A stretch of DNA of 42,512 nucleotides from an archaeon. GTDB lineage: Archaea; Nanobdellota; Nanobdellia; Woesearchaeales; GW2011-AR9. The translations under genes were made by a program, and so were the position numbers. The stretch spans positions 1 to 42,512 of the forward strand of contig JAUYKZ010000008.1 of the NCBI GenBank assembly GCA_030704845.1, written 5' to 3'. This document shows, in pieces, positions 1-42,512 of this stretch. Every line of letters begins with the position of its first letter. The stretch's first letter is position 1. The notes beneath the pieces were generated by a model that was not told where the DNA came from, made no database searches, and was given only the letters and a program-made list of their open reading frames with translations.

Positions 1-141
1 ATTTTTGTGAACTTTTCGTTGGTATATACAAACGCTAAATGAATTAAGTTCCAAATTTCATTTAGCGTTGAGTATATATTAACGCATTTTATATATATAA
101 AGTGCCAAAAATAAGTTCGAAAGCTTTGGCACTTTAGTATA
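1..141. repeat. Left-end hairpin array
   Basis: This noncoding stretch is a string of inverted repeats separated by TATATA-like spacers. Bases 1-20 are the loop and 3' arm (ACTTTTCGTT) of a hairpin whose complete copy is at 42471-42500. A second hairpin has arms 31-43 and 57-69 (13-bp stem, loop 44-56). The segment 79-90 equals the 3' arm of a hairpin at the right end, but its 5' partner is missing here. A third hairpin has arms 99-109 and 125-135 (AAAGTGCCAAA / TTTGGCACTTT, 11 bp). Bases 74-142 repeat exactly at 42398-42466, and 1-32 repeat exactly at 42481-42512. Two loops share AAGTTC followed by C or G and AAA. The function is unknown. Confidence 0.85.
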
Positions 142-696
142 TCAAAATCTGGAATAGATTTTCTCTCCAAGTATATCAGCCTTAGTGATTACACCAACAA
201 TTTTTCCATTATTTAATACTAAAACAATTGGATCGTGTCTCAACAGTTCTCTTATGCTTGATAATGGAGTTTTTTCGTTTACTAATGGCGGAGCATCTGA
301 CATAATATAGCCTGCCTCAATCCTTTTGAAATCATTTCTAGAACTAGCTTCAAGTATTGCAGATTCAGTTACAAGACCAATTACTACTTGGCTATCAATA
401 ATAGGTATCTGAGATATTGAATGAGTAGTCATTATCTTTATTATACTAAGTATTAGACTGTTTTTTTTTGAGAAAATAACCTTTTTGTTCATTATTTGAG
501 AAGCAGTTTTTTCAGAATTTGTTGAAAGCTGAGATATTGCATTATCAATCTTTTTCATACGGGAAAAGGTTGGATCTAAGATTCCAGCCTCTATTTTTGC
601 AATAAGTGACTGTGAAACTCCAGATTCCACCGCGAGTTTTTTCTGGGTGATACCTATCGTTATTCTTGCTTTATGTAACATTGATGGTTCTAACAT
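142..696 (-). CDS. XRE-family HTH regulator with paired CBS domains
   Basis: The protein has 184 residues. An N-terminal Cro/CI-type helix-turn-helix (about residues 5-58, with the signature SGVSQSLIAKIEAG) is followed by two CBS motifs (about 65-122 and 128-184). This is a common archaeal regulator architecture in which CBS pairs usually sense adenine nucleotides; the ligand here is unknown. The ATG start at 696 gives the usual short lead-in to the HTH. It diverges from the alarmone hydrolase/synthetase pair across a 106-bp gap. Its stop codon touches the terminal hairpin array, whose palindromes could be binding sites, but that is only a guess. HTH and CBS assignment is secure; the target is not known. 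Confidence 0.85.
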   Translation of the reverse strand: MLEPSMLHKARITIGITQKKLAVESGVSQSLIAKIEAGILDPTFSRMKKIDNAISQLSTNSEKTASQIMNKKVIFSKKNSLILSIIKIMTTHSISQIPIIDSQVVIGLVTESAILEASSRNDFKRIEAGYIMSDAPPLVNEKTPLSSIRELLRHDPIVLVLNNGKIVGVITKADILGEKIYSRF

Positions 697-802
697 CCCA
701 AGAAAAATTGTAACTGTAGTTAAAAACTTTACGAATCATTAAATTCTTATTGGAATATTTTTATCAAAAATAATTATTAAGAGAATCAAACAACTTAAGA
801 TT

Positions 803-1552
803 ATGCACCATCAACCAACAATTGAACAAAAATTTATTGACAGTATCAAAAATAGTAATATTGCACAGAATCATGTAATGAAATCTCTTGCCGGAGATGA
901 TGAATACATCCAAGCAGTAAGCACGTATAAAGAGTTTTTGTTTAAAATTGATTACAACAAAACAATTACGGAAGCATTTCTGTTTGCACTAGAGAAACAT
1001 GAAGGCCAGTACTACGTATGGAAGAAAGGCAGGAAACTACCATATACCTACCACCTATGCAAATGCGCCCTAAACACAGCTACCTTGTCTTATGAAGATA
1101 AAACGATAGTAATCGCATTATGGCACGATTTACTCGAAGATGAAAGAGCAACTAAAAAAGATCTTACTAATCAAATTAAAAAATCTTATTTCGATGCCAA
1201 TGAGATTATAAACGCATTGATTCTATTAGACAAAGGAAACTCAAGTTCTTCAAAAGAATATTTCAGCAATATTTTACAAAATAAAGATGCTAGTCTAATA
1301 AAAACCGCAGACCTAATCGCTAATCTTGATGAGTGTATTGATCGTTTTGATGAAATGATTGGTAATGAGCAACGTTTTTGGATCTATGATTATCTTATTG
1401 AGATCCCTCAGTTCTTCCTAAATTCAAAACATCTACCGAGAACATACAATAAAATTATTTCATCTAAAATCTCAAAGCTACACAGTTTATTGTCAGATAA
1501 AAATCAAAAAGAATTCAAAAGATATTCAAGAGAGGTGAAGATGCATGGATGA
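803..1552 (+). CDS. RSH-type HD hydrolase, probable alarmone hydrolase (SAH)
   Basis: This 249-residue protein carries the HD-hydrolase half of a RelA/SpoT protein. The metal and catalytic signature is complete: H84 (in YTYH), H108-D109 and E112-D113 (in WHDLLED), and D170 with N174 (in KTADLIANL, matching the KLADRxxNL motif of Rel). It has no synthetase domain. The last 8 bp overlap the downstream synthetase gene in another frame, so the two are almost certainly co-translated. By family knowledge it should remove the 3' pyrophosphate from (p)ppGpp or related alarmones. In toxSAS toxin-antitoxin pairs such a small hydrolase is the antitoxin, and the order here would fit. RSH proteins are rare in archaea. 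Upstream sequence is AT-rich, with no obvious ribosome binding site before the ATG. Confidence 0.85.
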   Translation: MHHQPTIEQKFIDSIKNSNIAQNHVMKSLAGDDEYIQAVSTYKEFLFKIDYNKTITEAFLFALEKHEGQYYVWKKGRKLPYTYHLCKCALNTATLSYEDKTIVIALWHDLLEDERATKKDLTNQIKKSYFDANEIINALILLDKGNSSSSKEYFSNILQNKDASLIKTADLIANLDECIDRFDEMIGNEQRFWIYDYLIEIPQFFLNSKHLPRTYNKIISSKISKLHSLLSDKNQKEFKRYSREVKMHG

Positions 1553-2294
1553 AAAGTTATTAGAAGAGATCATACAAAAATACCCCGCGTTTAAATGTTT
1601 ATTAGATGATAATGGCGCACTTGGAATTGCCCAAAATAGCTATGAAAAAATAATCGGCATCCAGAGAGATTATGAAATCGATGTTAAGAGAGACTTACAA
1701 CGCGTGATTAATAGATGTAGGGAAAGGTCATTAATTACAAATGAACTATCACATCTTGACAAGCATTATGCACCGCAGATCGTCAGTAGAGTTAAATCGC
1801 TCGATAGCGTATACCCTAAGATTGCTAAAAAAGAGATAACTTGGAAGGATTTGCCTCTGGATGATACTATTGGCTATAGACTCATTTGCAGATTTTTAGA
1901 TGAAGCACTGGAACTGCGTACTATCCTTGATGATGAGTTAAACAAACCACCTTTTACAATAACAAGCCGATTTCCAAGAACAAATTCTGGCGAATGGTCC
2001 GAAAAAGAAATCAATTCTGGATATAGGTCATATGATTTTGCATTTGTTTACAAAAGACAAGAATTAGGAATCGAGCTTGAAGGTGAATTGCAAGTTAGGA
2101 CCGTGCTTCAACATGCCTGGGCAGAGGTATCTCATGATACCTTCTATAAAAATGAATCCTTAGCAGCTGCTTCTGAAGATTATTTGCAGAACCTTGTTAA
2201 GCAGATGCATGCTTTATCTGATATGTTATTTGCAGTAGATACCTGTTTTGTTCAATTAAGGAAATTAACTGGTCTAGCAAAATTATTTATTTAA
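1545..2294 (+). CDS. RelA/SpoT-domain small alarmone synthetase (toxSAS-like)
   Basis: This 249-residue protein has a RelA/SpoT nucleotidyltransferase domain. Visible motifs are RVKSLDSVYPKI (82-93, the RxKxxxSixxK element), DxxGxR at D107/G110/R112, GYRS (159-162), ELQVRT with the catalytic-type Glu181 (181-186), and HAWAEVSHD (190-198) followed by YK (201-202). It would transfer pyrophosphate from ATP to GTP, to another nucleotide, or to tRNA as some toxSAS enzymes do. The usual His after GYRS-aromatic is Asp164 here, which may alter substrate choice. ATG 1545 is preceded by its own ribosome binding site GAGGTG (1532-1537), so this is a separate gene and not a frameshifted half of one long Rel. 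The stop is followed by a convergent argS. Confidence 0.87.
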   Translation: MDEKLLEEIIQKYPAFKCLLDDNGALGIAQNSYEKIIGIQRDYEIDVKRDLQRVINRCRERSLITNELSHLDKHYAPQIVSRVKSLDSVYPKIAKKEITWKDLPLDDTIGYRLICRFLDEALELRTILDDELNKPPFTITSRFPRTNSGEWSEKEINSGYRSYDFAFVYKRQELGIELEGELQVRTVLQHAWAEVSHDTFYKNESLAAASEDYLQNLVKQMHALSDMLFAVDTCFVQLRKLTGLAKLFI

Positions 2295-4006: not shown

Positions 4007-4027
4007 TATTGGTAAGAATTTGGCATA

Positions 4028-4037
4028 CTTTAAATAG
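4028..4037 (-). promoter_or_regulatory. TATA box for argS
   Basis: On the minus strand this reads CTATTTAAAG and lies 22-31 nt upstream of the argS ATG, as expected for a leaderless archaeal message. It shares the 80-bp intergenic region with the pyrBI promoter. Confidence 0.6.
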
Positions 4038-4053
4038 ATTCTGTTCAGAAACC

Positions 4054-4063
4054 TTTTTATATC
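4054..4063 (+). promoter_or_regulatory. TATA box for pyrBI
   Basis: TTTTTATATC lies 24-33 nt before the chosen pyrBI ATG (4087). This supports both that start and leaderless transcription. Confidence 0.6.
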
Positions 4064-4086
4064 CCTGCCATTATAATCCATCTTTA

Positions 4087-5697
4087 ATGCAAGACCTTAT
4101 ATCCATGCGAGATATTTCTAAGGAAGAAATCCTTAATATTCTTGAAGTTGCTGGAGATATTAAAAGAGTAATTCATGGCCCAACAACTGATTCTTTTTCA
4201 AAAAAGTATGGAACAGAATGGTCAAAGATTTTGGAAGGTATTTCCGTAGCAACATTATTTCTTGAAAATAGTACCAGAACCAATTATTCATTTAGAGCAG
4301 CTGTAGTAAAAGCAGGTGGAACCGTAGATGGATTTCCTACCCAAGATCACACTTCACTTAAGAAAGGGGAAACCTGGGCTGATACTGCTAGCATGTTCGC
4401 AGGATATGGTTACGATGCTCTAGTAATTAGAAGCACAGAAGAAGGATTACCAAGATGGACAAAAGAAATTCTAACTCAAAATAATCAACAATTATCAAAT
4501 CAACACCAAGAATTTGGTATACCTTTTAGTTATAAAGTCCCCTCAATAATTAATGGAGGAGACGGAAAAAATCAACATCCTTCTCAGTGTTTACTTGATT
4601 TGTTTACAATGCAAGAAATCGCTAGATCCCAAGGTAAAGAATTAGATGGTTTAGATCTTGCTCTCCTTAACGATATTAAACATGGAAGAACAATTTCATC
4701 ATTAATATCGGTTGCTAATCTGTTCAATTTCAGATTACATTTTGCATATCCTAACAGATTTGGTCCTACAGAAGATGTTGTGAAAGAACTTCGAGAGAAA
4801 GGAGTTAAAGTCCAGGATTACGAAACTGATTTTACTGAAGCATTAAGAAATTCGTCTATAGCTTATCATTCAAGACCACAGAAAGAAAGAGTTGGTCAAG
4901 GAGAAGATTTTGAAGCTATTAAAAGAATTGGACAAATAAACAGATCTATTTACGATTCCTTAGGAAAGAATGCTCCTTTTTTAATGCATCCCTTACCTAT
5001 CGATGCAGAAACTTTTGCTGAAATTTCTGAAGATATGAGGGATCATCCAAAAAATGTTACCAAATATCAATCTTCAAATGGATTATATGTTCGCATTGCT
5101 TTACTTGGAATATGTGCTGGAAGGATAGATTCGGAAATAAAAACAGAAACTGCTTCCATCGGAACAACATTAGAAGAAATTGCTCTCCATGAACACAGAC
5201 AAAAGTTAGATAATCCTGTTTCGGGATATATTCGAAATAGTGGAATTGTCATTGATCATATTCCGCCCGGGATGGGAAGAAGACTTGCGGGAGTACTAGG
5301 ATTAGAAGCGCAAGAAGTACGTAAAGTTATTTCGGATTATCTTCCATCTTCAAAACAGGGTGGATTGAAAGATCTTGTTAAAATTCATGGGAATTATGAA
5401 CTGACTTCTGAACAACACGATGCTATTGCTTTAATTGCACCTCATGCAACAATAAATGTTATCGATGAAAATGTAGTAACTAGAAAATATCAAATAAGAT
5501 TGGGCCAAAACGTTACCGGAAGAATAGTTTGCGTCAATGACGGATGTATTTCAAACGTTGAAAAAGAGGGAATTCAACCAAAGCATTACATCGAACAAAC
5601 TGGAGAAAATACCAAGTTGCGTTGTCAATATTGTGAAGTTCCAGATACTGTAGATAAAGCTTATAAGCAGAATCGGTTTGTTTATATCGGGGAATAG
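4087..5697 (+). CDS. pyrBI: Fused aspartate carbamoyltransferase (PyrB-PyrI)
   Basis: This single 536-residue chain joins the catalytic and regulatory subunits of aspartate transcarbamoylase, the first committed step of pyrimidine synthesis. The catalytic part (about 1-350) shows STRT (62-65), the 80s-loop SLKKGET (90-96), HPSQCLLD, DIKHGRT, SRPQKER and HPLP. The regulatory part (about 380-536) includes the nucleotide-binding fold region and a four-cysteine zinc site at C482, C487, C513 and C516. The Arg that normally follows HPLP is Ile here. ATG 4087 is chosen because of the TATA spacing; upstream in-frame codons have no similarity to PyrB. Fused PyrB-PyrI chains are known in some lineages such as Thermotoga. 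No other pyr genes are in the window. Confidence 0.93.
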   Translation: MQDLISMRDISKEEILNILEVAGDIKRVIHGPTTDSFSKKYGTEWSKILEGISVATLFLENSTRTNYSFRAAVVKAGGTVDGFPTQDHTSLKKGETWADTASMFAGYGYDALVIRSTEEGLPRWTKEILTQNNQQLSNQHQEFGIPFSYKVPSIINGGDGKNQHPSQCLLDLFTMQEIARSQGKELDGLDLALLNDIKHGRTISSLISVANLFNFRLHFAYPNRFGPTEDVVKELREKGVKVQDYETDFTEALRNSSIAYHSRPQKERVGQGEDFEAIKRIGQINRSIYDSLGKNAPFLMHPLPIDAETFAEISEDMRDHPKNVTKYQSSNGLYVRIALLGICAGRIDSEIKTETASIGTTLEEIALHEHRQKLDNPVSGYIRNSGIVIDHIPPGMGRRLAGVLGLEAQEVRKVISDYLPSSKQGGLKDLVKIHGNYELTSEQHDAIALIAPHATINVIDENVVTRKYQIRLGQNVTGRIVCVNDGCISNVEKEGIQPKHYIEQTGENTKLRCQYCEVPDTVDKAYKQNRFVYIGE

Positions 5698-42370: not shown

Positions 42371-42512
42371 TATATACTAAAATGCGTTAGATTTCGAATA
42401 TATTAACGCATTTTATATATATAAAGTGCCAAAAATAAGTTCGAAAGCTTTGGCACTTTAGTATATACTGAACGAAAAGTATTTTTGTGAACTTTTCGTT
42501 GGTATATACAAA
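42371..42512. repeat. Right-end hairpin array
   Basis: Three complete hairpins in TATATA-type spacers: AAAATGCGTTA with TAACGCATTTT (42379-42389 and 42404-42414), AAAGTGCCAAA with TTTGGCACTTT (42423-42433 and 42449-42459) and AACGAAAAGT with ACTTTTCGTT (42471-42480 and 42491-42500). Bases 42398-42466 equal 74-142, and 42481-42512 equal 1-32. If the ends were joined on the 32-bp overlap, the array would read as five or more hairpins with one unit repeated at a period of 156 bp. It lies directly upstream of the YchF-type gene. Confidence 0.85.

Follow-up and report, generated by a model that had tools for sequence, protein, structure and literature searches.

The window analyzed here, a 42,512-nt stretch of DNA from an archaeon of the order Woesearchaeales (genome G000), carries near its left end two open reading frames in different frames that overlap by 8 bp. 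They encode a small alarmone hydrolase (SAH) and a small alarmone synthetase (SAS), and a gene for a regulator with a helix-turn-helix and two CBS domains (HTH-CBS) is oriented divergently from them, with 106 bp between it and the SAH gene. The features of the locus are:

142..696, minus strand: divergent regulator with HTH_3 and two CBS domains (HTH-CBS)
743..756, unstranded: 14-bp palindrome ATTCTTATTGGAAT, putative HTH-CBS operator, midway between the divergent starts
803..1552, plus strand: SAH, HD fold, 249 aa; H84, H108-D109, E112-D113, D170 and N174 intact
about 1533..1538, plus strand: GAGGTG, Shine-Dalgarno-like by sequence, ahead of the SAS start
1545..2294, plus strand: SAS, RelA_SpoT fold, 249 aa; E181 intact, Asp164 in the G-loop

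This anatomy agrees with an earlier description made from the letters of the DNA (the sequence-only reading), which had noted the two overlapping frames, every RSH hydrolase metal residue in the first, a complete RelA/SpoT synthetase motif set including Glu181 in the second and a ribosome binding site for the latter; a GAGGTG does precede its ATG. The metal residues are conserved in three of three orthologs and the synthetase motifs are invariant over 28 relatives. The proposal that core translation genes surround the pair stood in part: such genes are not absent, but the neighbors are mixed and include ArgRS, aspartate carbamoyltransferase and a B3/4 protein. The catalytic and regulatory (PyrI) chains of the aspartate carbamoyltransferase form one fused ORF (window positions 4009-5697). 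The window also holds a palindromic element at positions 81-142 and 42405-42466, with ends ATATACTAAAATGC.../...GCACTTTAGTATAT, whose left copy directly adjoins the stop codon of HTH-CBS. This element (62 bp as searched, about 95 bp in full) has about 39 copies across the 1.02-Mb genome that are 94-100% identical, some of them joined to further hairpin modules and with several contig ends nearby, and by its sequence may be a MITE-like element or a hairpin array. The two contig ends (window positions 1-33 and 42480-42512) share about 32 bp (ATTTTTGTGAACTTTTCGTTGGTATATACAAA), which is most simply read as an assembly break within the repeat array rather than as circularity because an internal copy exists at C8.

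The synthetase belongs to the RSH synthetase superfamily, scoring 49.1 bits against Pfam RelA_SpoT (PF04607; cut-off 27). Family models and structure-sequence comparison place it nearest to RelQ/YjbM by sequence; its 42.5 bits against the RelQ/YjbM equivalog model NF053588 fall far below the 320 bits required for that assignment. An AlphaFold2 model (pLDDT 90.5) has Bacillus subtilis SAS1 and Staphylococcus aureus RelP as its top fold matches, with CapRel ranking lower. In the alignment of 28 relatives, 22 positions are invariant, including R82, K84, K92, D107, R112, G159-Y160-S162, E181, Q183 and R185. The replacement of GYRS-x-H by GYRS-x-D that had been remarked upon is genuine and limited to the SAS proteins of three genomes, G000, G133 and G091 (the trio): all three have Asp at position 164, where the remaining readable synthetase domains of a survey of about 110 have His; an automatic motif search left some rows of this survey unreadable. 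All viral rows of the 28-relative alignment also carry His there. A second peculiarity of the trio is an insertion between F137 and G159. The three proteins form their own clade (support 100/99) in the synthetase tree, on a stem of 1.76; they are a separate deep lineage in a tree whose sole toxSAS reference is CapRel SJ46. The synthetase described here is not a CapRel, as its 249 aa lack the C-terminal domain and it lies outside the CapRel clade. Three other woesearchaeal SASs (L016, L080 and L081) cluster with CapRel SJ46 at 100/99, at a point where long branches meet, and because of this clustering CapRel-like toxSAS may occur in archaea.

The SAH ORF has no Pfam match and stays under the cut-off of HD_4, as do its orthologs (15 bits against PF13328, threshold 27). 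Its HD and ED motifs and its fold nevertheless place it in the RSH hydrolase superfamily (HD_4/SAH), and the HD region matches RelA/SpoT family models and solved small alarmone hydrolases. The AlphaFold2 model, built from three sequences (pLDDT 85.9), matches Corynebacterium glutamicum RelH, a Bacteroides (p)ppApp hydrolase, Pseudomonas aeruginosa SAH (PaSAH) and MESH1. In the hydrolase tree, the SAH proteins of the trio form one clade (100/99); this tree contains several long branches, and its support stops short of the deeper placement of that clade.

The proposed check of whether the two genes are conserved together in related archaea was positive for G133 and G091, both Woesearchaeota MAGs of a different family from G000, so that the pair spans three genomes and two families. 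In each, SAH lies directly upstream of SAS, with overlaps of 23 bp and 4 bp, respectively. A SAS search of 242 genomes of the order gave 13 matches at E<=0.001, among which G133 (55% identity) and G091 (52% identity) hold the only orthologs. A sample of the phylum added no further SAS ortholog, and an order-wide search with the SAH profile found only G000, G133 and G091 above 50 bits. A motif scan of 85,000 genomes, with patterns strict enough that distant members could escape, likewise returned only G091 and G133, both labelled Candidatus Woesearchaeota. The pair is thus sporadic, occurring in three of about 350 genomes searched, which resembles an accessory or toxin-antitoxin gene more than a housekeeping gene. 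Carriage by mobile elements was considered and rejected, since plasmids and phages have no close relative of SAS or SAH; in the bacterial plasmid regions inspected that carry annotation, no adjacent HD gene is annotated. Within the trio, the hydrolase is the faster-diverging partner (33-44% identity, versus 52-74% for SAS); dN/dS is uninformative for the pair, as synonymous sites are saturated.

The sequence-only reading had held RSH proteins to be rare in archaea. This does not apply to the order studied here, in which PF04607 is present in 155 of 338 genomes, and RelA/SpoT has been reported in 41.7% of Woesearchaeota (PMC8407392). G000 itself also encodes, on contig C6 (L002:814-2697), a long Rel of 627 aa that combines HD, RelA_SpoT and TGS domains. 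The HD motif of this protein is degenerate, as it is in the long Rels of twelve sampled relatives of the same family (f1) and of G091: HG, HN, LR, LN or similar residues replace HD, ED is missing farther downstream, and the synthetase G-loop is retained. Long Rels of other families have HD and ED intact. Judged by these motifs, the f1 and G091 proteins look like RelA-type, hydrolase-dead enzymes. SAH is the only hit of the SAH profile in G000 and, because of the degenerate HD motif of the long Rel, the only intact RSH hydrolase found in this genome. The apparently hydrolase-dead long Rels of the f1 family mostly have no recognizable partner hydrolase; as these relatives mostly lack SAH, a hydrolase would be either dispensable there or supplied by another family.

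The presence of a long Rel in the same genome bears on the idea that the two ORFs arose from one long Rel by a recent frameshift or split, for which the hydrolase-then-synthetase order and the 8-bp overlap could be taken as signs. A tree joining the halves to long Rels of close relatives had been named as one observation that would overturn the pair. Such a tree was not obtained: long Rels form one clade in the synthetase tree (100/100) that excludes SAS, the long-Rel HD domains form a clade (96/94) with the SAH trio outside it, and the two small proteins therefore do not qualify as a long Rel of the HD-SYNTH-TGS-ACT type, being separate and nested in neither clade. The split layout is moreover kept in three genomes. 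With the trees, the conservation and the separate long Rel all against it, this explanation can be dismissed for practical purposes, and the data support a genuine hydrolase/synthetase pair that is kept together and is distinct from a frameshifted long Rel.

The divergent regulator offers a further handle on the function of the pair. In G091, HTH-CBS is likewise divergent from SAH, in the order HTH-CBS | SAH SAS MTHFR metK, the last two being named from their sequences. In G133, the HTH-CBS and SAH genes each start at a contig edge, which is consistent with the same layout, and we infer that they are linked across the contig break. HTH-CBS is not an exclusive partner of the pair, since it was found in 18 of 24 Woesearchaeales genomes, usually without SAH and SAS. 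Neither is a joint recent transfer of HTH-CBS, SAH and SAS supported: in a weak tree, the G000 regulator clusters neither with f9 nor with the other f1 sequences. HTH-CBS adjoins metK in five f1 relatives; metK as an operon partner was rejected for G000, whose genome contains neither the bacterial nor the archaeal type. Six loci (L116, L117, L118, L122, L126 and L021) carry HTH-CBS beside metK with a conserved 14-bp palindrome, and the regulator that adjoins metK is a candidate SAM/methionine regulator.

The palindrome family ATTCYNATNRGAAT has a single match in the 1.02-Mb G000 genome, which is the site at 743-756. G171 also contains one site, which has the corresponding position upstream of HTH-CBS, and G150, G222, G235, G190 and G091 contain 2 to 7 sites each, one of which is upstream of HTH-CBS. 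Because the pattern was derived by inspecting these sequences, five fresh HTH-CBS upstream regions served as an independent test: ATTCYNNNNRGAAT was found in four of the five, three of these four with the strict form, versus 0.14% of shuffled regions. In G151, the strict copy is located farther from the start than a looser copy. Since the fresh regions carry the site far above the shuffles, the palindrome is assigned to the HTH-CBS regulator. The regulator is thus divergent from the SAH-SAS operon with its own palindrome between them, and from this position HTH-CBS would regulate the operon through the putative operator.

Several characterized systems resemble parts of this arrangement. FaRel/ATfaRel of Cellulomonas marina, a toxSAS with a SAH antitoxin, provides the precedent for a SAH that acts enzymatically as the antitoxin (PMC11782079). 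As in the archaeal pair, SAS and SAH genes are adjacent, and the SAH of the FaRel system can erase the SAS product; the FaRel system differs by a second, type II antitoxin gene, whereas the archaeal pair, which is known from sequence, has a divergent HTH-CBS with a putative operator, an archaeal host and Asp where the G-loop usually has His. Tde-SAS (DsRel) and Tde-SAH (ActSpo2) of Treponema denticola provide the precedent for a non-toxic pair (PMC10434055), in which separate SAS and SAH proteins are thought to run alarmone metabolism. There, however, the genes are non-adjacent (TDE1711 and TDE1690), the genome has no long RSH, and Tde-SAS is a 410-aa protein with an extra C-terminal domain. 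The nearest solved folds to the archaeal SAS, RelQ/SAS1 and RelP/SAS2 of Firmicutes (5ded and 6ewz), are only about 20% identical to it and have a GYRSxH G-loop. To our knowledge, neither RelQ/SAS1 nor RelP/SAS2 has a partner hydrolase gene. CapRel SJ46 (7ztb), a fused toxSAS, shares the synthetase superfamily but combines toxin and antitoxin in a single protein, and its tree partners are L016, L080 and L081 instead of the SAS described here. For SAH, the nearest solved folds are RelH, PaSAH, MESH1 and the (p)ppApp hydrolase 7smg (16-22% identity), from which it differs by extra N- and C-terminal helices and a length of 249 aa versus about 140-195.

The interpretation that we favor, at roughly an even chance, is an alarmone module that limits its own signal and is controlled by HTH-CBS. 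SAS would use ATP to pyrophosphorylate a purine nucleotide at its 3' hydroxyl, with GDP/GTP or an adenine nucleotide as the most likely acceptor. SAH, co-translated and made first from the shared mRNA, would remove the pyrophosphate added by SAS, so that the signal would accumulate only when synthesis exceeds hydrolysis. CBS domains bind adenosyl ligands, and HTH-CBS is a likely sensor of such a ligand (ATP/AMP or S-adenosylmethionine) that would bind the palindrome at 743-756 and set transcription of its own gene and of the SAH-SAS operon. As the hydrolase motif of the G000 long Rel is degenerate, SAH probably clears the product of that enzyme too. The retention of the overlapping pair in three genomes, the fit of both models to alarmone enzymes, the divergent HTH-CBS with its palindrome and the degenerate HD motif of the long Rel argue for this module. 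Against it stand the sporadic occurrence of the pair and the absence of SAH from most f1 relatives with such a long Rel, and the G-loop His-to-Asp exchange could shift the substrate away from free nucleotides. A more specific version, in which a CBS-type sensor of an adenosyl ligand from the methionine/SAM branch controls, via the conserved operator, a dedicated pair whose synthetase, with Asp164 in its G-loop, has an unusual 3'-pyrophosphorylated product, alongside a synthetase-only long Rel, is unlikely, though conceivable.

The sequence-only reading had suggested a toxin-antitoxin or stress-alarmone module. The main competitor is a toxin-antitoxin or antiviral system, with SAS as a toxSAS-like toxin acting by tRNA CCA pyrophosphorylation or (p)ppApp synthesis and SAH as its enzymatic antitoxin, comparable to ATfaRel/FaRel. 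We regard it as a real possibility of clearly less than even weight. The overlapping, hydrolase-first operon, its sporadic distribution and the HTH regulator alongside all fit such a system, and among viral contigs, the SAS profile matches (pro)phage synthetases best. Fast divergence is frequent among antitoxins, and SAH is the less conserved partner here. The products of toxSAS, tRNA modification included, are removed by SAH enzymes (PMC11782079, PMC11559606). However, the profile search that had been proposed recovered RSH synthetase and hydrolase families and no toxSAS family: no PADLOC toxin-antitoxin or NCBIfam toxSAS model exceeded its cut-off, and only the candidate model PDC-S33 responded (45 bits). 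The structural proximity of SAS to RelQ/RelP rather than CapRel, its distance from CapRel in the tree, the lack of close relatives of the pair in phages and plasmids, and a chromosomal regulator adjoining it in two families also count against a toxin. The link to HTH-CBS and its putative operator points to a regulated physiological module at least as much as to a toxin-antitoxin system. Still less probable, and in our view rather doubtful, is a synthetase fold repurposed to an acceptor other than GDP/GTP or tRNA CCA, or inactive on nucleotides, with Asp164 and the insertion marking the new specificity. The fixation of Asp164 in the trio and its absence from the other readable domains of the survey, the long stem and the trio-specific insertion before the G-loop would be expected in that case, but the remaining catalytic residues, G-loop Tyr160 and Glu181 included, are invariant, and the partner SAH has a standard 3'-pyrophosphate hydrolase fold.

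The pair is a variant of known bacterial systems in a so far unseen form, found in an archaeon with a tiny genome. In an order in which many genomes have long Rels, those of one family have apparently become RelA-like proteins with a dead hydrolase, and a few members of the order carry a compact pair of alarmone maker and breaker tied to a regulator with a recognizable DNA site.
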